Origin: Gimesia alba
GTDB taxonomy: Bacteria; Planctomycetota; Planctomycetia; Planctomycetales; Planctomycetaceae
NCBI RefSeq assembly: GCF_007744675.1
Contig: NZ_CP036269.1
Span: 4,505,546-4,569,545 of the forward strand
Length of the DNA: 64,000 nucleotides
Direction: 5' to 3'
Shown: piece by piece, positions 4,538 through 13,754 of the stretch
How positions within the stretch are numbered: position 1 is the stretch's first letter
Layout of the letters: every line of letters starts with the position of its first letter
Notes under the pieces: generated by a model
The model's input: the letters and a program-made list of their open reading frames with translations, nothing else
Database searches by the model: none
Told to the model about the DNA's origin: nothing
Made by a program: the position numbers and the translations under genes

Positions 4538-5470
4538 TCAGTCCTTCAACTTGATAAATGCCACGGCATTGTTGTTGTTCATAGGAATGATCAACTGATT
4601 CTGTTTGGAATCGTAGCCCATCGATGCGGCGCTGGGGATTCCTGAGGCAATGACCTTGGCCGGCTTACCGGGGCGGATCTCAGAAACGCTTCCAAACCGG
4701 ACACTGCTTACATACTTGGTTCCATCGGGGAGAATCACCAGACCGTCGTTGCCCCCTTCTGCAGCGTGTTCGGTACGCAGCAGTTTGCCACTAGCGGGAT
4801 CAAAGGTCATCACATCATTGTTGCCGACATTGACGACCACCACGTTCCCGTCCTGATCGATGGCCACGCCGTTCGGGATATCCAGTGGCTTGCCGTCAAC
4901 GAACAGGGAGACGTCGCCGTCCGCTGTGATTTTATAAACGCGGTTCTCCGGCTTCGAGTTGGAAACAAAGATCGTTCCTTCTTTATTGACGGCAATCCCG
5001 TTGAGAAAAGTGGCGCCTTTCACGGGATAAGCACGCCCCGGTTTGCCTGAAGCGAGATCAAACGTGCGGACGACGTCGATATCAGCCGTATAGAGGGTTC
5101 CGTTATGAATCGCGCTACCCAGTGGATGATTCAGGGTCAGCCCTTTCCGGGTTGCCCCGATCCATTTTGTCGTGTGGACAGAACCGTCGGGGTTCAGCAA
5201 TGAAACGTAACCATCGTTCTTCTGCATGTTTTGCGGGACGCCGGCGTTCATGACCACAATCAGGTTTCGTACCGGATCATAAACGCAACTTTCGGCAAAA
5301 CGAAAACTGCCATACACTTTGACATTATCCGAAATTGGTACAAATTTCCCGGCTTCGTTGACGGCCCCCAGCGGCTTTCCCGCCTCAAATGCTTTCGTTG
5401 CATCCTGGGCCAGTGCGGCGCTGCCCAGCAGCGACATCGCTCCGATGGTAATCACAAAGAACGCTTTCAT
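4538..5470 (-). CDS. Secreted SMP-30/NHL-like beta-propeller protein
   Basis: 310 residues with a clear Sec signal peptide (1-21, ending SAALAQ). The body has repeating blocks such as LNGIAVNKEGTIFVSNS, PNGVAIDQDGNVVVVNVGN and DGLVILPDGTKYVSSV, the pattern of NHL/SMP-30/strictosidine-synthase six-bladed propellers. Such proteins are either lactonases needing a divalent metal or binding scaffolds, and I cannot tell which. It is predicted to be periplasmic or extracellular. It lies downstream of the SGNH hydrolase on the same strand with about 150 bases between, and has its own terminator. Confidence 0.85.
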   Translation of the reverse strand: MKAFFVITIGAMSLLGSAALAQDATKAFEAGKPLGAVNEAGKFVPISDNVKVYGSFRFAESCVYDPVRNLIVVMNAGVPQNMQKNDGYVSLLNPDGSVHTTKWIGATRKGLTLNHPLGSAIHNGTLYTADIDVVRTFDLASGKPGRAYPVKGATFLNGIAVNKEGTIFVSNSKPENRVYKITADGDVSLFVDGKPLDIPNGVAIDQDGNVVVVNVGNNDVMTFDPASGKLLRTEHAAEGGNDGLVILPDGTKYVSSVRFGSVSEIRPGKPAKVIASGIPSAASMGYDSKQNQLIIPMNNNNAVAFIKLKD

Positions 5471-6599: not shown

Positions 6600-7718
6600 A
6601 TGGAACTCCCCGCTTTCCCTCTCGTTCAATGGTTTGCGGCCGCGGAAGGCCGTTTTGAATTCTCGCTCAGTCACTCCGACTGTGAACCTTTATCAGTCTC
6701 CGACATTCTGGGGGATGCAGAGCAAAAAACGCTTGCCAATCTCCCTCTTGGTTATGGTACGTTCGCCGGACTGGAAGAGCTGCGGCAGAGTGTCGCCCGT
6801 CAATATGCGACTCTTAAACAAGATGACGTGCTGATTTTCGGCGGCGCGAGTGAAGTCATCTATACGTTCATGCGGACAAATCTGAATCCGGGCGATGAAG
6901 TTGTAATTCAAGCGCCGATCTTCAATTCGCTCAAAGCGACCGCACAAGCCATCGGTTGCCAGATCATCGAGTGGCGTCCCACCAATGAGCTGACCTGCGA
7001 ATTCGATGTTTCGACTCTCATCGATCTCTGTAACGAACAGACAAAACTTATCGTTTTTAATTTTCCACACAATCCCTCTGGGCAGATGATCTCCGAAGAC
7101 GAACTCATATCCATCGTGGAAACGGCTCAGAAATACGATGCTATGATTTTCAGCGACGAGCAATTCCGACTACTGGAGTTGCCGGAATCTCCCCGGCTGC
7201 CTCCTGCATGCGACGTCTACGATAAAGCAGTTTCGGTCGCCGGGGTATCGAAAACTCTGGGACTGGGAGGATTACGGATCGGCTGGCTGGCAACACGAAA
7301 CCGGGATCTGCTGAAGCGTGCCAGAGAATATCGCTACTACACCACCGAGATGACCAATACGCCTTGTCAAATGCTGGCAGCGCAAGCGATGAAACATCAC
7401 GACGAAATCCTCACGCGTAACCGCAAACGAATCATTCATAATCTGAAACAGCTGCAGGCGTTCTGCTTACGACACAAGCAGTATCTCGACCTGCATCCGC
7501 CCCAGGCAGGTCCGATGGCCGTTGTTGAGCAAACGACATCATTCACAAGCACAGAGTTCTGCCAGCGTCTGCTCGATGAGCAGCGTGTGATGCTGGTCCC
7601 TGGGGAAGTCATGGGAATCTCAAATCGATTACTGCGAATCGGCCTCGGCAGAGACGATTTCAGCAAAGGGCTGAACCGGCTTGAGACATTCCTGCAATCA
7701 ATGCCAGCGGCAAACTAA
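6600..7718 (+). CDS. PLP-dependent aminotransferase, class I/II fold
   Basis: 372 residues, cytoplasmic. Fold type I landmarks are FPHNPSG (Asn158), FSDEQF (Asp186), AGVSKTLGLGG with the Schiff-base Lys218, and the Arg that binds the substrate carboxylate near the C-terminus (NRLLRIGLGRDD). The length is a little short of standard aspartate aminotransferases. The family includes amino acid aminotransferases and capreomycidine-synthase-like enzymes, and substrate specificity cannot be read from sequence. It stands alone on the plus strand. Confidence 0.88.
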   Translation: MELPAFPLVQWFAAAEGRFEFSLSHSDCEPLSVSDILGDAEQKTLANLPLGYGTFAGLEELRQSVARQYATLKQDDVLIFGGASEVIYTFMRTNLNPGDEVVIQAPIFNSLKATAQAIGCQIIEWRPTNELTCEFDVSTLIDLCNEQTKLIVFNFPHNPSGQMISEDELISIVETAQKYDAMIFSDEQFRLLELPESPRLPPACDVYDKAVSVAGVSKTLGLGGLRIGWLATRNRDLLKRAREYRYYTTEMTNTPCQMLAAQAMKHHDEILTRNRKRIIHNLKQLQAFCLRHKQYLDLHPPQAGPMAVVEQTTSFTSTEFCQRLLDEQRVMLVPGEVMGISNRLLRIGLGRDDFSKGLNRLETFLQSMPAAN

Positions 7719-7780
7719 AAACCACTGGAGAATCGAGAACTGGAATAATACTTACAGTGCAATCAATCCACCGATTCTCA

Positions 7781-8677
7781 TTAACTCTGATTCGCGAGTT
7801 GCTTTTTGAAGAACGCGATCGTCCGTTTCCAGGCCAGTTTGGCTGAGTCTTCGTCGTAACGGGGAGTGGTGTCGTTGTGGAAACCGTGATTGGCGTTTTT
7901 ATACACAAACGCTTCGAAGGGAATGTTGTTCTTCTTTAACGCCTGCTCCAGCGCAGGAGCGCCCGCCATGATGCGTTTGTCGAGCGATGCGTTGTGAATC
8001 TGCAGCGGTGCTTTGATCTTCGGTACCTCAGCTACGTCCGGCTGGCGACCGTAATAGGGAACGCCGGCATCGATCACATCGGGAATCCGCAGTGCGAGTT
8101 CATACACCATGCCGCCCCCGAAACAGAATCCGACGACGCCCACTTTGCCCGTCGATCGTTTGTTCGTTTCGAGCCATTTTGCGGCGGCAACGAAGTCTTC
8201 TGCCATTTTCTCTTTATCCCGCTTTCGCTGCAGCACGCGCCCTTCGTCATCATTGCCGGGATAGCCTCCCAAAGGCGTTAACGCATCGGGAGCCAGTGCT
8301 AAAAAACCTTCGGTCGCCAAGCGGCGGGCGACATCTTCAATGTAGGGATTCAGCCCCCGGTTCTCATGAATCACCAGGACTGCGGGAAATTTTTTCCCTT
8401 TCGAAGGATACGCCAGCAGCCCCTGCATCTTGCCGGCCCCTTTGGGGGAATTGTAGGTCACTCGCTCGGTCTTGATCCGGGAATCGTCGGCTTTGACCTG
8501 TTCCGCCCAGGCATAATTGGGAGCCAGACTCGCCAGCAGCGATTCGACAGTGATGCCCCCCACCGCGAACGCACCGAGCTGTTTGATGTAGTCCCGCCGA
8601 CTCAATCGGCCGTGGGCGTAGTCGTCATACAGATCCAGAACTTCCTGATCAAATTGTGCTGCACGTTTCCGATCCAT
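7781..8677 (-). CDS. Tat-exported dienelactone hydrolase family protein
   Basis: 298 residues, alpha/beta hydrolase of the DLH family. An N-terminal helical stretch is followed by SRRDYIKQL (Arg27-Arg28), a twin-arginine motif, and a hydrophobic segment to about 57, so Tat export is likely. The triad candidates are Cys185 in GFCFGG, Asp233 and His264 in NANHGFH. Classical DLH opens dienelactones in chloroaromatic degradation; exported planctomycete forms have no known substrate. It converges on the aminotransferase gene with a 60-base gap. Confidence 0.9.
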
Positions 8678-9114
8678 TTTGTTGTCTCTCTCGATCTAAA
8701 AGACCCCATGGGATGAATGACATTCTGATCTTGCCAGTTCAACAAGACTTCGAAACGAGCTTTGATTCATTCCTAATTCAAAGCGGCTTGACTTAAACCT
8801 GACTCAACAATCGAGTTCATGATAAAGATTAAAACTTCAGTTTGAAACGATTTTCCGCAAAAAAGCGTTTTTGGTGAGCACAAAGAAAGCAGAGAACACG
8901 TTCGGTTTCTTCACGCCTGCTACTCTCAAAAAATCAAAACCGTTTTCAGTATTTTGAGTTGCAAGCACCATTGAACCAAGTCCACAGGATTGATGTGACT
9001 GGATATATATCGATGAAGTTTCTCCCCAGAAAGAGATCAGAAAAGGGCAAGGTCATCCAGATCATCCACGCTTTGCTGCTGATTCATCTTCTGACTCTTT
9101 AGCCATCCGGAACT
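8678..9114. other. Noncoding, AT-rich gap
   Basis: No supported gene, RNA or clear terminator. It marks the composition change into the AT-rich block that runs to about 14.2 kb. Confidence 0.5.
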
Positions 9115-10272
9115 TTATGCCCTTCGTTTACTCAGAACGAAATAGCCAACGATCAGCACAATGATTAGTCCATTTATGATCAAGAGCCATCGCATTCCCG
9201 ACCCATTCTTGAAGTAAAACCCACCTGTATTTTTCAGTGCATCAACTTTAGGAACAATTTTTCCATCCAGCCAGGCATATTGTAAGTGTTGTGCATCCTG
9301 CATTGTAACTCCCAACCCATTCGGCACTTTTGCCTGGATCTGAAATTCGTTGTCAGAAAATTCATCAAGATGAATGTCAGTCAGAGTCACCTCAGCGACC
9401 AATGTAGCCGCAGGAACATCTATACTATCCTCACCTTCGGAATTCTCCTCACTCACCACAACAAACGCACCATTAATCACTCGAACACCTTTGGGAAGTT
9501 GATGCTGCTGATTAAAAGTTTCAACTTTACATTGATATTTTACAGGCAACCAGATTCCGGATTGCTCAGTAGACTGCTCCACGGTGTACAACATTGATTT
9601 CAAAGTTTCGTTTTCCCCGGGTTTCGTTCGCGTAAAAGAGATCTGTTCCGGCATGCCTCCTTTCGAGGAAGTGGCAAGACGAATATTTAAGCGGTACGCT
9701 TCCGTCTCGCATGTCAACTCAGTAACGCCTCCAGATTGCTTTACTTCAGTCTGATCGAGGAGTAAATCCGAAATTGACAGATATTGATTTCCATCCTGCA
9801 GATAGCCAAACACAGGTGCCAGATACCCCCAGCCAACAGATTCTTTCCATAATGGTTTAGTGGGTTCAAGATAACTAACGAATGATTGGGCAGTGTTGGT
9901 ATCACGTTTCACCCCAATTGAGTAATAGAGAGCTGATCCCAGCAAGGTTTCTGAACTAACAGGAGCCGGTTTCATCTGATTCGGTTTTTGTGGGTCGCCA
10001 ATCATTTTTGTGACGACATTCCAGACCTGTTTTTTATCAAAATCAATTTTCCATTTCTGCGAAATCACATTCGTAAACACATCGCCGTCTTCAGCAATCC
10101 GATCCCTGTTCTGGTTGGTAAAAGAAATCTGATGAATTTGATCTAAATAGTTCAGATAGAGATTCCGGCCACTTAAAGCAGTGTCTCCATCCTGCGCTGC
10201 AGTGGTATCTGTGAATACAAAATGCATCACAAAATACCCGATAATGATCAATAGCGTTCCTTTAGATCTCAT
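9115..10272 (-). CDS. Secreted protein with C-terminal membrane anchor, unknown family
   Basis: 385 residues. A Sec signal peptide (1-26, ending TTAAQ) is followed by a soluble region of about 330 residues rich in beta-strand-like segments with an internal FTRTKPGENE turn. It ends in GMRWLLIINGLIIVLIVGYF and then SKRRA, a single membrane helix with positive charges at the extreme C-terminus. That topology is a stop-transfer anchor and superficially resembles sorted-protein tails, though I see no PEP or LPxTG box. The start is supported by AAAGGA 6 bases upstream. It lies downstream of three secreted Cys-rich peptide genes but behind a terminator, so it probably has its own promoter. I do not recognise the family. 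Confidence 0.75.
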   Translation of the reverse strand: MRSKGTLLIIIGYFVMHFVFTDTTAAQDGDTALSGRNLYLNYLDQIHQISFTNQNRDRIAEDGDVFTNVISQKWKIDFDKKQVWNVVTKMIGDPQKPNQMKPAPVSSETLLGSALYYSIGVKRDTNTAQSFVSYLEPTKPLWKESVGWGYLAPVFGYLQDGNQYLSISDLLLDQTEVKQSGGVTELTCETEAYRLNIRLATSSKGGMPEQISFTRTKPGENETLKSMLYTVEQSTEQSGIWLPVKYQCKVETFNQQHQLPKGVRVINGAFVVVSEENSEGEDSIDVPAATLVAEVTLTDIHLDEFSDNEFQIQAKVPNGLGVTMQDAQHLQYAWLDGKIVPKVDALKNTGGFYFKNGSGMRWLLIINGLIIVLIVGYFVLSKRRA

Positions 10273-10385
10273 CGGTGTTCCTTTAAGGCTGAGACTTTTC
10301 TTATGTAAAGCTAAGATTTACTATTGGCAAGAGCATTCGCAATGCTACTTTCTCAGTACTGAGACTTCTCATGAAAAATTCAAAT

Positions 10386-10429
10386 AAAACACGACTCAAC
10401 ATCTTGGTTGATAAATTGAGTCGTGTTTT
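10386..10429 (-). terminator. Strong hairpin terminator after the peptide genes
   Basis: A perfect 14-base inverted repeat (AAAACACGACTCAA at 10386-10399 and its complement at 10416-10429) with a 16-base loop. Both flanks are T-rich in their respective directions. It sits between the last peptide gene (stop at 10481) and the start of the anchored protein gene (10272). Confidence 0.75.
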
Positions 10430-10480
10430 TCATTGTTGTTTACTCGCTACAACTAATGTATGTTTTCAACTTGAGAAACG

Positions 10481-10807
10481 TTAGCCACCAGCACAATCCT
10501 TAATTGTCAACTGATACGTCCTTGGGGTTTCACATTGAGAATTCCCTTCACAATTGCCATTTGGTTTACTGATGATTCCCTTCTGCCTGTAATCAGTTCC
10601 CCCCTCTACAGCAAGTTTGTAGTTACCATGAGTGCAACCAGTGATTGCTGTGCAGGGCTTATCGGCACTGAAGCCCTTAAATTTGCAATCTGCTCCTCCT
10701 TTGACTGACATGGCCGCCACCTGCTCTGCCGAGTCTACTCGCGGCCCCTGGAACAGGGCAATTGTCAGTGCAACAACAGCACCAACACCAAATAAATTTC
10801 TTTTCAT
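10481..10807 (-). CDS. Small secreted Cys-rich peptide precursor, copy 1
   Basis: 108 residues. The N-terminus is a signal-like leader (MKRNLFGVGAVVALTIALFQ, then GPRVDSAEQVAAMSVKGG) nearly identical to that of the two neighbours. The core holds six Cys (41, 52, 58, 86, 92, 105) spaced C-x10-C-x5-C-x27-C-x5-C-x12-C and ends in CAGG. The leader ends at Gly37-Gly38, a double-glycine site of the kind cut by C39 peptidases, and a C39-domain protein is encoded in the same cluster. The mature product would be about 70 residues. AAAAGGACTG precedes the start. No known toxin or bacteriocin family recognised. Confidence 0.82.
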   Translation of the reverse strand: MKRNLFGVGAVVALTIALFQGPRVDSAEQVAAMSVKGGADCKFKGFSADKPCTAITGCTHGNYKLAVEGGTDYRQKGIISKPNGNCEGNSQCETPRTYQLTIKDCAGG

Positions 10808-10944
10808 AGGAATTCAGTCCTTTTCAATCAAAACTGAGAATCATCCGCAAAATACCAACATGATATTTTATTCTAAAACGAAGAGTCACTAATTGATCAC
10901 TCTACAGATTTTCCACAACCTCTGTCGCTCTGATTTGACAATCA
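10808..10944 (-). repeat. Duplicated upstream region, copy A
   Basis: The 5' region of peptide gene 1 matches the 5' region of peptide gene 2 (11350-11487). The matches include a shared 26-base block at 10919-10944, the ribosome site and a -10-like hexamer (TAGAAT, 10870-10875) at the same distance from the start codon. Confidence 0.75.
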
Positions 10945-11013
10945 AAAAGACAGAGGACAGAGCACCTTCAAAAGAACCCGTTTTTACTGATTCTCTCCTA
11001 GTGAAATAAAACA

Positions 11014-11349
11014 TTAACCGCCTCCACCACAACCATTTGTAGTTAACTTATCGGTAAGGAGACCATTAGCCGGACACTGTGCATTGCCTGTGCAATTTCC
11101 ATTCCGATAGCCTCCTGCTGCCTTCTGATGGCTTGCGTTACTACCTCCTACATAGACAGAAGCTTTCGTGGTTCCTCCTGTGCAGTCTGAGTTGATAGTA
11201 CAAGAAATGGTGGTATAACCACTAAAGCTACATTTGGCACCTTTGACAGACCTGGCCGCCACCTGCTCTGCCGAGTCAACCTGTGGCCCCTGGAACAGGG
11301 CAATTGTCAGTGCAATAACAGCACCAACACTAAATAATTTTCTTTTCAT
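11014..11349 (-). CDS. Small secreted Cys-rich peptide precursor, copy 2
   Basis: 111 residues. The leader matches copy 1 (MKRKLFSVGAVIALTIALFQ, then GPQVDSAEQVAARSVKGA) and ends in Gly-Ala at 37-38. The core differs strongly from copy 1 but keeps six Cys (40, 50, 56, 86, 92, 107), the NGNCTGNAQC motif and a Gly-rich end (CGGGG). A Sec signal cleavage after VDSA is plausible, leaving a short propeptide ending SVKGA. Predicted to be extracytoplasmic and disulfide-bonded. The gene and its 5' region are a tandem duplicate of copy 1. Confidence 0.82.
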   Translation of the reverse strand: MKRKLFSVGAVIALTIALFQGPQVDSAEQVAARSVKGAKCSFSGYTTISCTINSDCTGGTTKASVYVGGSNASHQKAAGGYRNGNCTGNAQCPANGLLTDKLTTNGCGGGG

Positions 11350-11487
11350 GAGAATCCAGTCCTTTTAAACTGAAAATGAAAACCGTTCATAAAACACCAA
11401 CATGGTATTTTATTATAAGAACAGTGGGTCACTGATTGATCACACTTTAGATCTCCCACACCCTCTGTCGCTCTGATTTGACAATCA
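11350..11487 (-). repeat. Duplicated upstream region with -10-like TATAAT, copy B
   Basis: Counterpart of 10808-10944. The 26-base block CCTCTGTCGCTCTGATTTGA plus CAATCA is at 11462-11487. TATAAT on the minus strand (11412-11417) lies 63 bases from the start codon, the same distance as in copy A. No good -35 hexamer is visible. Confidence 0.7.
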
Positions 11488-11570
11488 CGGATGTCAGAAC
11501 ACCTTCAAAATAATCACACACGCAAAAATACAATTGTTGTTGATTCACTCTGGATATAATTCAACAATAC

Positions 11571-11909
11571 TTAACCACCGCCGCCACATCCATCAGATGA
11601 CAATCTGACCGTATTGATGGCAGCGGGACATTGGGCGTTCCCGGTGCAGTTTCCATCTGCATGAACCCCATCCACTATTTTGTAGCTCCCCACCGATCCC
11701 TTCGCTACAGTTACTGCTGCTTCAGACACTCCACCAGTGCAAGCGGGGAGGATGGTACAAGATTGATTCTCATAGCCCTCTTGATCACAACCAGCCGCCC
11801 CTTTGACAGATATTGCCAACACCTTTTCTGCCGAATCGACCTGCGGCCCCTGGAACAGGCCAATCGTCATCACGATCATCGCACCCATGCTTACAAGAAT
11901 TCTTTTCAT
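11571..11909 (-). CDS. Small secreted Cys-rich peptide precursor, copy 3
   Basis: 112 residues. The leader (MKRILVSMGAMIVMTIGLFQ, then GPQVDSAEKVLAISVKGA) is the most divergent of the three but still clearly related, ending Gly-Ala at 37-38. The core has six Cys (41, 51, 57, 88, 94, 108), the DGNCTGNAQC motif and a CGGGG end. AAAGGACTG precedes the start, but the far upstream region is less like those of copies 1 and 2, suggesting an older duplication. First of the three peptide genes in transcription order, about 100 bases after the MauE-like gene. Confidence 0.82.
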   Translation of the reverse strand: MKRILVSMGAMIVMTIGLFQGPQVDSAEKVLAISVKGAAGCDQEGYENQSCTILPACTGGVSEAAVTVAKGSVGSYKIVDGVHADGNCTGNAQCPAAINTVRLSSDGCGGGG

Positions 11910-12014
11910 GTGAATACAGTCCTTTCAAAGTGAAAACTTAAGAAAATCTTCCTTGAAACTTTTATGTGATCTTTCTATTCAAAATGAGTTTACGCGTTCC
12001 TCTGTTTCAACCAG

Positions 12015-12512
12015 TCAGTGATTAGCCTGGAACTGAGCTGTTCTTCCCATCCACCAAAACACGAGCATCCAAGACATCGATAACAAAAGTAGCCCACCGA
12101 CCAGAGAAATTGTGGAAAGATCGATTGTCGTACTCTGGCGCGGTCCAAAGCATCCACACGAAATATCTAACCCTCTGAACTTCACCGAAATTTGAACGAT
12201 GGTAAAAACCATGAGCATCATCAGAGTAATGACGTGCGCAGCGAAATGAAAAAAACGGAAGATAAGACAAGCCGCTAAAACCAACTGCAGAAAGGGAAGT
12301 ACCATCGCAATAAATTGTGCCATCACCGGGGGAATCAATTCGTATCGATAGACGGAACCAAGAAAATAATAAGGATTTCCCAGATGTGGCAAGCCACTGA
12401 GAATCAAGAACCCACCCAGAACCCATGAAACCACGCTGTCAAATAACAGAAACCGCTCATCTGGTTCGATAAGGTGTATCTCGTCTGTCATATTCATCGT
12501 TGCATCAGTCAT
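12015..12512 (-). CDS. MauE/DoxX-like membrane protein with CxC motif
   Basis: 165 residues with about four membrane helices (roughly 27-43, 64-86, 91-111, 135-156) and a cytoplasmic acidic N-terminus. Between helices 3 and 4 lies LDISCGCFG (Cys119 and Cys121), the typical MauE-family cysteine motif. MauE helps MauD in making the disulfide-rich methylamine dehydrogenase subunit, and relatives act in thiol-disulfide transfer across the membrane. No methylamine dehydrogenase genes are nearby, so a role with the Cys-rich peptides is the simpler inference. The start has GAGGAAA 11 bases upstream; it begins 15 bases after the C39-rhodanese stop, so the two are an operon. Confidence 0.8.
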   Translation of the reverse strand: MTDATMNMTDEIHLIEPDERFLLFDSVVSWVLGGFLILSGLPHLGNPYYFLGSVYRYELIPPVMAQFIAMVLPFLQLVLAACLIFRFFHFAAHVITLMMLMVFTIVQISVKFRGLDISCGCFGPRQSTTIDLSTISLVGGLLLLSMSWMLVFWWMGRTAQFQANH

Positions 12513-12527
12513 CGTTGCGAACTTTCC

Positions 12528-13754
12528 TCATTCTTGTGCTATTCTGCTACCTTCAGGAATGTGGTTTTGACTCCACTCGCGATATCCGCCGCGAAACACA
12601 GCAACATTTTTGAAATCATTGAATTCTAGAAATTGAGCAATCTCATCGGCAAAACCGCATCCGGAACTTTGACAATACACGATGATGCGTTTTGTTCTGG
12701 GAACGCCTGCTAAAATCTGCTGACGATCATGTAATGCAGAATTGATCGGAATACTCTTGGCGTTTGGTAAAGTGCCCCGTTGAAAATCGATCGCATAACG
12801 TGCGTCCAACAACAATGGTTCCCCTTCCGAAATTTCCTGCTCGGTCTCGGCAAGGGTGAGTTTGGGGATCTTCGAAGAATGATAGCGAATTGTCACTTCC
12901 GCCAAAGCAGTCGAATTGTTTAAAAAGCCAACATCAGATGCGGCGTGGTACCCCAGGCTCAGAAGTAAGGAAAATCCAAAGATAATGCACATTTGCCAAA
13001 GGAGACTTACTTTTTTCGAATTGATTTTGAATTTGACAATCGAAAATGAATTACTGAAGCATCTCGCTAAGAAATAGACAGCAAAGGCGAGTAAGCCTAA
13101 CCCCAAAATAATTTCGACTCGAGATTCATATAAAAACCCATGTGTCAGTTCTTCTTTTGAAACGGCAATCGCAGTCCCATCCCACTTTGAAAGGAGTTCA
13201 GCCATTGTCAGCGTTTGCAAGGGGAGGGGCGCATCAACAATGCGAACACGATCTCCTTCAAAACCAAGGAAAGCGATCCAGTGATTAAAATTCTTGTCTG
13301 TTCGATTTCCCTGTACATGCAGAATCATTGGAGTTTGAATCCGCCTCAGATCTCGGTGTGTCAAATGGGATAAACTTTCTGCGTGCGCACCAAAATCTCT
13401 GGTTGCATCAATGAGTTCTTTCGCACTACTGCCTTCAAATGAACCGATATATCGGGTCTTGATATAGTCTGCTGGAGTAGTCTCAATTCCCAAAGCAGTC
13501 AGACACGCGTAAAGACTGTTGACACCGCAATAAGGACCTCGAATACGATTGTCGTTCAACGCCGGCAACTGATCCTCTGTCTGCTGTTCGTTCCTCAAGT
13601 GTGAACCCTGAGCGGGTTGATGATTGTCGCCTTTGGCTGGTTGAAACTCGTCTGCATAGGTCGCAGGACAAGCGATCCCAACTTCTAGAATAAAACAGAA
13701 TATGAGAAAGAGATTCGTACTCTGAGATGAAAAAATGAAAGTGTTCCCGGGCAT
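12528..13754 (-). CDS. Membrane fusion of C39-type Cys protease and rhodanese
   Basis: 408 residues. An N-terminal signal or anchor (about 12-34) is followed by a papain-like C39 domain (about 65-205) with GPYCGVNSLYACL (Cys76), NHWIAF (His158) and VDAP (Asp174), a complete catalytic set. Two membrane helices follow (about 213-230 and 251-270), then a rhodanese domain (about 300-405) with active loop CQSSGCG (Cys361, second Cys at 366). C39 domains normally sit on ABC exporters and cut leader peptides after GG or GA; here no ABC domain is present. With an N-terminal signal, both catalytic domains probably face the periplasm. First gene of the minus-strand cluster. Confidence 0.85.
   Translation of the reverse strand: MPGNTFIFSSQSTNLFLIFCFILEVGIACPATYADEFQPAKGDNHQPAQGSHLRNEQQTEDQLPALNDNRIRGPYCGVNSLYACLTALGIETTPADYIKTRYIGSFEGSSAKELIDATRDFGAHAESLSHLTHRDLRRIQTPMILHVQGNRTDKNFNHWIAFLGFEGDRVRIVDAPLPLQTLTMAELLSKWDGTAIAVSKEELTHGFLYESRVEIILGLGLLAFAVYFLARCFSNSFSIVKFKINSKKVSLLWQMCIIFGFSLLLSLGYHAASDVGFLNNSTALAEVTIRYHSSKIPKLTLAETEQEISEGEPLLLDARYAIDFQRGTLPNAKSIPINSALHDRQQILAGVPRTKRIIVYCQSSGCGFADEIAQFLEFNDFKNVAVFRGGYREWSQNHIPEGSRIAQE

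Follow-up and report, generated by a model that had tools for sequence, protein, structure and literature searches.

This report concerns a run of six genes in a 64,000-nucleotide stretch of the Gimesia alba genome (contig NZ_CP036269.1, positions 4,505,546 to 4,569,545; hereafter the window), a genome of 7.77 Mb in a single contig (G000). A check of open reading frames (ORFs) found all six between window positions 9115 and 13754 on the minus strand, in the order C39-rhodanese membrane protein, MauE-family protein, three small Cys-rich secreted peptides and a membrane-anchored secreted protein, which we discuss here as a candidate cassette for maturation of the peptides. The features are as follows.

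12528 to 13754, minus strand: P0006, a 408-residue protein with a C39 domain, two transmembrane (TM) segments and a rhodanese domain, assigned from Pfam, a structure model and conservation
About 13152 to 13529, minus strand: C39 domain of P0006, with Cys76, His158 and Asp174
About 12567 to 12854, minus strand: rhodanese domain of P0006, with the loop Cys361-Gln-Ser-x-x-Cys366
12015 to 12512, minus strand: P0005, MauE-family membrane protein with a CGCFG motif (Cys119 and Cys121)
11571 to 11909, minus strand: P0004, Cys-rich secreted peptide precursor C, with a Sec-like hydrophobic segment, a leader ending in SVKGA and a 74-residue core with 6 Cys
11014 to 11349, minus strand: P0003, Cys-rich secreted peptide precursor B, with a leader ending in SVKGA and a 73-residue core with 6 Cys
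10481 to 10807, minus strand: P0002, Cys-rich secreted peptide precursor A, with a leader ending in SVKGG and a 70-residue core with 6 Cys
10698 to 11978, no strand: three copies of a 179-nucleotide direct repeat, starting at 10698, 11240 and 11800 (85% and 61% identity to the first)
9115 to 10272, minus strand: P0001, Sec-exported protein with a C-terminal TM anchor (about residues 360 to 384) and a predicted LolA/LolB-like domain

Only 15 bases separate the C39-rhodanese gene from the MauE gene. GC content is 40 to 45% in the 1-kb bins between 9 and 14 kb, compared with about 50% over most of the remaining window. The earlier note, made from the letters alone, had described an AT-rich run on one strand that comprises a C39-rhodanese fusion, a MauE-like CxC protein, three Cys-rich peptides and an anchored protein, with no ATP-binding cassette (ABC) exporter joined to C39. 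The ORF coordinates, the base composition and Pfam bear this out: Pfam finds just C39 and rhodanese in P0006, which is therefore not a peptidase-containing ABC transporter or ABC-transporter maturation and secretion protein (PCAT/AMS), in which C39 is joined to ABC TM and ATPase domains. Rfam gave no match between window positions 5000 and 18000, and promoter- and terminator-like sites at the locus did not exceed the shuffled expectation.

The same set recurs in other genomes, and for this reason we regard the cassette as a recurrent, conserved gene set that reflects more than chance. Its distribution is patchy, as the full architecture was found in few genomes of the family and phylum searches: the match table places it in 13 of 150 genomes of the family (with a split match in G080), and among 392 genomes of the phylum a strong C39-rhodanese match (E below 1e-80) was seen in 6, along with partial matches in G480, whose aligned copy L082 has no catalytic Cys; elsewhere the matches were mostly confined to rhodanese. 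From named genome contigs, a scan returned 22 loci, 18 of which (L089 to L106) match beyond the rhodanese part, four of them on contigs already counted. Most of the relatives are titled Planctomycetaceae, Schlesneria, Gemmataceae, Pirellulales and similar. After removal of L083 (a near copy of L082) and of L089, L091, L100 and L105 (contigs of L041, L040, L039 and L038), our counts refer to 30 distinct C39-rhodanese loci and 6 C39-only loci.

All 30 C39-rhodanese loci have a MauE gene within 3.2 kb, compared with none of the 6 C39-only loci; in 28 of the 30 the two genes are immediate neighbours on one strand, the exceptions being L097 (3.1 kb away) and L102 (other strand, upstream). The anchored protein was sought with an iterated profile that includes these loci's own members (with the L049 and L102 sequences trimmed), and it matches within 2.3 kb, or as a fusion, at 26 of 30 loci; it is missing at contig ends (L039, L093 and L094, the last showing a fragment) and at L082. 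An earlier version of this profile was discarded because C39 proteins had entered it by way of a merged ORF of L049. At that locus (7339 to 9554) the anchored protein continues into C39 and the reading frame of C39-rhodanese is interrupted, a frameshift or assembly error; some rhodanese matches contain in-frame stops, and L047 has an open C39-rhodanese ORF. Small secreted Cys-rich peptides are present at 22 of 30 loci and were missed at six contig ends (L039, L048, L093, L094, L096 and L099), at L082 and at L081. Peptide, anchored protein and C39-rhodanese follow one another in this order in 19 of the 22 peptide-bearing loci, and MauE comes next in all 19 except L102; the arrangement is different in the window, in L097 and in L037, the closest relative of the window. 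In L102, the anchored protein and C39-rhodanese are fused in one ORF of 730 residues, a fusion that appears to tie the anchored protein to the same process.

The co-occurrence of C39, MauE and Cys-rich peptides, with which the earlier note had linked its reading, thus holds at most loci, and the peptides are found together with the C39 and MauE-like genes rather than always apart from them. As far as sequence can speak to that reading, nothing listed against it in the note was found, and it appears supported. The wider sample adds the anchored LolA-like protein as a core member, two conserved Cys in the rhodanese loop and frequent DUF1559 neighbours. No Pfam family occurs in more than three of the 118 neighbour proteins of the C39-rhodanese loci, and no ABC transporter family is among the 25 commonest Pfam families listed for them; inspection by eye showed one ABC-type ATPase, in L049.

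In five members of the genus, homologs of the genes that flank the cassette in the window (DLH and methyltransferase) lie about 11 to 13 kb apart on the same strand, unlike in the window. Two of these intervals were read; they contain no match to the cassette genes, and their genes appear efflux-like by eye. No simple empty site was thus found in these relatives, and no clean junction was seen. The cassette looks like an accessory unit.

Pfam (Peptidase_C39, 34.1 bits; cut-off 22), profile matches to the solved ComA and PCAT1 and a structure model (pLDDT 75.6) agree on a predicted C39 fold in P0006, and the model aligns with the ComA peptidase domain (Z 17.1, root mean square deviation (rmsd) 2.4, 133 aligned) and with LahT (Z 16.9, rmsd 2.3, 131 aligned). 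Of 36 members, 34 keep the catalytic Cys together with the His and 33 keep the Asp, so that in these residues the relatives do not show the degenerate active site that would have spoken against the earlier note's reading. Ser replaces the Cys in L082 and Gly replaces it in L088, neither of which has a double-glycine (GG) peptide nearby, although this link between loss of the Cys and loss of GG rests on two loci. The oxyanion Gln, six residues before the Cys, is absent in 35 of 35 readable members (Arg in the window), and since it is missing, the domain is probably best described as a triad-keeping domain of C39 fold rather than a canonical C39 peptidase. According to the available part of a study on CvaB, replacement of this Gln by Ala or Asn has little effect, and Lys and His strongly reduce or abolish secretion, Arg not being in the table (PMC3335142).

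Both the missing Gln and the behavior of the Lys and His mutants of CvaB would suit a C39 domain that binds and tethers the leader without cutting it, in the manner of degenerate C39-like domains from certain toxin exporters, with signal peptidase or another protease trimming the peptides. The accessible text of PMC5135000 also describes some C39-like domains as inactive and involved in substrate handling only. However, a tether would not need the Cys and His that 34 of 36 members keep, the leaders keep GG itself, and the two Cys-less loci have no GG peptide, so that we consider a mere tether distinctly improbable.

Two TM segments, joined by a short loop rich in Lys and Arg, separate the C39 from the rhodanese domain. 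Lys and Arg outnumber Asp and Glu in this loop in 21 of 21 measurable proteins (one of them, L050, without rhodanese), and by the positive-inside rule this puts both domains, by prediction, on the outer face of the inner membrane, in line with the earlier note's view of a C39 acting outside the membrane.

P0005 matches Pfam MauE (PF07291) with 77.1 bits (cut-off 27), and CGCF is invariant in 14 aligned relatives. The rhodanese domain of P0006 (50.7 bits; cut-off 22.2) contains a CxSxxC loop, mostly CQSxxC among the relatives, and neither Cys varies in alignments of 13 and of 16 members. A persulfide on the loop Cys is common in rhodanese domains, and the fold search lists sulfurtransferases and persulfide reductases, which would favor a delivery or removal of sulfane sulfur on the peptides (persulfide or polysulfide chemistry) by rhodanese and MauE rather than plain disulfide exchange. 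We consider such chemistry unlikely, since the loop has another conserved Cys five residues further along, which is more in keeping with an internal disulfide, the even Cys parity of the peptide cores described below fits full disulfide pairing, and no sulfur-source enzyme is among the 25 commonest neighbour families listed.

Rhodaneses whose match includes no C39 part can have the two-Cys loop as well; they come from Planctomycetota, Verrucomicrobia and an Omnitrophota record. By our own count, a MauE match lies within the fetched flank (mostly 1.5 kb) at 18 of 30 distinct loci of such rhodaneses, compared with 0 of 10 loci of single-Cys rhodaneses, the two groups coming from different taxa and L057 (the G480 locus) and L025 (no loop read) being left out. 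This contrast is only suggestive, and the rhodanese-MauE pair may be older than the C39 fusion. In L060 and L062, rhodanese-MauE pairs without C39 stand beside proteins that resemble DUF1573 by eye. In the available part of PMC7794033, MauE is noted together with precursors of at least eight Cys in Streptomyces candidate clusters; a search of open-access literature listed no relevant paper on a redox pair of MauE and two-Cys rhodanese.

Peptide candidates were collected as small Cys-rich ORFs with a hydrophobic segment, with GG not required, and a few were added by eye. Of the 27 automatic candidates near C39 and on its strand, 23 have G[GAS] at most six residues before the first Cys, compared with 3 of 20 control ORFs elsewhere (Fisher p 3e-6), one of these three (L022) being the L084 peptide seen from another locus; the GG/GA leader that the earlier note had read in the window peptides thus recurs at other loci. 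In a set of 29 peptides assembled by hand with the motif in view, from which L087 and L088 were left out, 27 have the motif, compared with a shuffled mean of 9.4 (0 of 20000 shuffles). The peptides therefore combine a Sec-like hydrophobic segment with a subsequent double-glycine leader, in which position -4 is Val, Ile, Leu, Met or Phe in 20 of 29 cases. GG peptides also occur at four of the six C39-only loci (L050, L084, L085 and L086), and in L050, L085 and L086 the leaders are long and resemble classical double-glycine leaders. Cut at the sites that we named by hand, the precursors would yield cores of 50 to 103 residues, whose Cys count is even in 27 of 29 (binomial p 8e-7), or in 24 of 26 with one peptide per locus, as full disulfide pairing predicts; in L090, L046 and L084 the site used for this count lies after the G[GAS] picked by the leader script. 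Since the peptides are phylogenetically non-independent, in addition to the hand-named sites, the p-values are guides.

The short leaders of L044 and L047 have their GG site where signal peptidase could also cut, and DUF1559 prepilin-like genes lie within 4 kb at 17 of 36 loci (roughly 3 of 36 expected by our own estimate if randomly spread), despite just 22 to 104 copies per genome in 13 genomes. MauE-DUF1559 fusions occur in two different metagenome-assembled genomes (L093, 1066 to 2529; L103, 3506 to 4942). GG near the first Cys might then be the mere end of a Sec signal peptide, in genes kept together for another reason, such as a pilin-like surface structure with DUF1559 proteins. We consider this highly improbable: by our own count the motif ends 18 to 27 residues past the hydrophobic segment in the window, L050, L085, L086, L102 and L104, beyond the usual distance of signal peptidase, we know of no signal peptidase rule for a Val or Leu at -4, control ORFs mostly have no motif, and the window C39 gene has no DUF1559 gene within 4 kb. 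No PMT-type gene was noticed there either. L037 has a DUF1559 gene nearby, on the other strand.

The anchored protein P0001 matches no Pfam family above cut-off. Its AlphaFold model is of moderate confidence (pLDDT 67, pTM 0.59); Foldseek places the best matches in the LolA/LolB/DUF1329 group (best E 1.1e-5), and a VIA-align structure alignment with Porphyromonas gingivalis LolA3 (9tp6_A) gives Z 12.3 and rmsd 4.2 over 188 aligned positions, so that a LolA/LolB half-barrel is the predicted fold. A lipoprotein-carrier role as in LolA is unlikely for P0001 because of its TM anchor. Neither the peptides nor the anchored protein belong to a family above cut-off in Pfam or to any in NCBIfam, PHROGs or PADLOC.

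Peptide families that share the double-glycine leader differ from one another in their cores. The family of the window occurs in 2 of 17 genomes of the genus, G000 and G136, both of which carry the C39-rhodanese gene; 11 of the 17 were searched for this gene and three have it at full length, the third, G038, with a different GG peptide (L044). The 179-nucleotide repeat covers the leader codons and upstream region of each peptide gene, indicating that the three window peptides arose by tandem duplication with their leaders kept; identity between the paralogs is 86 versus 41%, 65 versus 33% and 73 versus 52% for leader versus core. Between G000 and G136, the proportion of synonymous differences (pS) is 0.14 to 0.22 for leaders, 0.20 to 0.22 for C39 and MauE, 0.39 for the anchored protein, 0.47 for the flanking DLH gene and 0.69 to 0.83 for the cores. 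As the cores exceed the divergence of the flank and the leaders, C39 and MauE fall below it, this suggests core exchange with leader homogenisation, or a comparison of unlike copies, rather than simple fast substitution. The anchored protein, which is less conserved (77% protein identity) than C39 (92%), MauE (95%) and DLH (93%), may track the peptides. We lean toward a role of the peptides in competition or signalling, which the variable cores and patchy presence fit better than a housekeeping part.

Some loci carry further genes. PMT-type glycosyltransferase genes follow just after MauE in L043 (4228 to 7277), L045 (5313 to 7061) and L046 (9038 to 10876), and the MauE of L043 is also fused to a GT2 domain; some peptides might therefore be glycosylated in the periplasm. 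In L049 (4104 to 5918), a gene with a PMT match below cut-off follows a DUF1559 gene. The genome of the window itself contains a second, divergent set (L050, at G000:C1:7407000-7423000, positions 7192 to 12884) with a GG peptide, a C39-TM protein, two C-terminally anchored proteins and a DUF1559 prepilin-like gene; its C39-TM protein appears by eye to have a second C39-like domain without Cys. L082 and L083, about 82 kb apart in G480, encode closely similar rhodanese proteins with a C39-like part; L082, which has lost the catalytic Cys, is followed by MauE and accompanied by genes that look phage-tail-like by eye, and no peptide or anchored protein was found near it. The C39-only clusters L084 to L088, with GG peptides in some and with C-terminally anchored and DUF1573-like proteins, are possibly a wider family of periplasmic C39 systems within the family.

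Our results lead us to propose that the genes form a maturation cassette for disulfide-rich double-glycine peptides that would work on the outer face of the inner membrane, a reading to which we assign a probability of roughly two in three. Sec would export each precursor by its N-terminal hydrophobic segment. The core Cys would then be paired into disulfides, as suggested by their parity and by the constant gene pairing, with MauE (CGCFG) exchanging thiols with the two-Cys rhodanese loop. The periplasm-facing C39 domain, judging from the leader pattern, the fold and the catalytic residues, would bind the leader chiefly through the hydrophobic residue at -4 and cut after GG or GA to release the core. 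More speculatively, the anchored LolA-fold protein might hold or hand over the precursor or product, and an outer-membrane or glycosylation step might be added in certain other loci by a prepilin-like DUF1559 protein or a glycosyltransferase of PMT type.

Several observations weigh against this proposal, among them the missing oxyanion Gln, the CvaB mutants and the short leaders already mentioned. L081 is a true miss, as its upstream sequence is present and yet no peptide was found. No outer-membrane pore common to the loci appears among the listed neighbour families. Of five two-Cys rhodanese loci from the family to which the window belongs, none has a MauE gene in the short flank; 5 of the 18 MauE-positive loci without C39 space the loop Cys by 4 or 6 instead of 5. 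Leader positions -7 (hydrophobic in 16 of 28) and -12 (14 of 24) are only weakly hydrophobic, Ala included, no clear GG accompanies the Cys-rich ORF of L087, and the core Cys counts of L042 and L103 are odd.

A more specific version, to which we give somewhat less than an even chance, is an outside-first pathway in Planctomycetota, in which Sec and a compound signal-plus-GG leader, oxidation in the periplasm by MauE and two-Cys rhodanese, and a membrane-bound C39 with an altered oxyanion hole would release only folded peptide. For double-glycine peptides, the exporting pump normally does the trimming as well. If the proposed pathway is true, export would be separated from trimming and trimming would be coupled to oxidative folding, a second kind of partner would be suggested for MauE proteins, and disulfide-rich peptides of planctomycetes, a family for which we know of no activity, would gain a signature by which to search for them. 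The class of periplasmic C39 proteins would also gain a substrate with a canonical leader, the substrate being still unclear in the available parts of the Fap papers considered below.

What is new is that Sec and a GG leader are combined with a fusion of C39 and two-Cys rhodanese, with MauE and with an anchored protein of predicted LolA fold. The cassette shares with the exporters ComA, LahT, PCAT1 and CvaB (class II microcins) the C39 fold, Cys-His-Asp, a GG or GA leader and a hydrophobic -4, and the window likewise has several precursors with conserved leaders and variable cores. In contrast to these exporters, its C39 has no ABC domain, is predicted outside rather than in the cytosol and misses the oxyanion Gln, while its precursors additionally carry a Sec-like segment; an identity as class II microcins was rejected on account of that segment and of the C39 protein without an ABC domain. 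The anchored protein resembles LolA/LolB, DUF1329 and RseB in its predicted fold but differs in having no sequence family match and a C-terminal membrane anchor.

In methylamine dehydrogenase maturation, MauE is paired with the thioredoxin-like MauD, whereas the partner in the cassette would be a two-Cys rhodanese; no MauD or methylamine dehydrogenase genes are among the 25 commonest neighbour families listed, a count made with no genome-wide search by name. The likeness lies in MauE itself and in the Cys-rich substrate, whose disulfide formation MauE is thought to serve both there and in Streptomyces candidates for ribosomally synthesized and post-translationally modified peptides, and the accessible part of that report mentions no C39 in the Streptomyces clusters (PMC7794033).

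The nearest precedent is FapD of the Pseudomonas Fap functional amyloid system. No FapF pore or FapB/C amyloid family is among the 25 commonest neighbour families listed for our loci, for which no Fap model search was made. In the available portions of the two reports, FapD is a Sec-exported, stand-alone periplasmic C39 peptidase with no ABC transporter, its active-site Cys is needed for secretion, its substrate was unclear when it was described, and fapD-fapF pairs are reported in five further phyla (PMC5557850, PMC6173800). The earlier note knew of no described system with this gene set; this stands for the set, no description of which was found in open-access literature searches that were not all aimed at the whole set, and does not stand for the idea of a stand-alone periplasmic C39, which FapD precedes (PMC5557850, as far as its available text goes). 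FapD and, by prediction, the cassette share a stand-alone C39 with a Sec signal in the periplasm and no ABC transporter, but, as FapD is presented in those portions, it has neither a rhodanese or MauE partner nor a canonical GG-leader substrate, whereas the cassette comes with clear GG-leader peptides.

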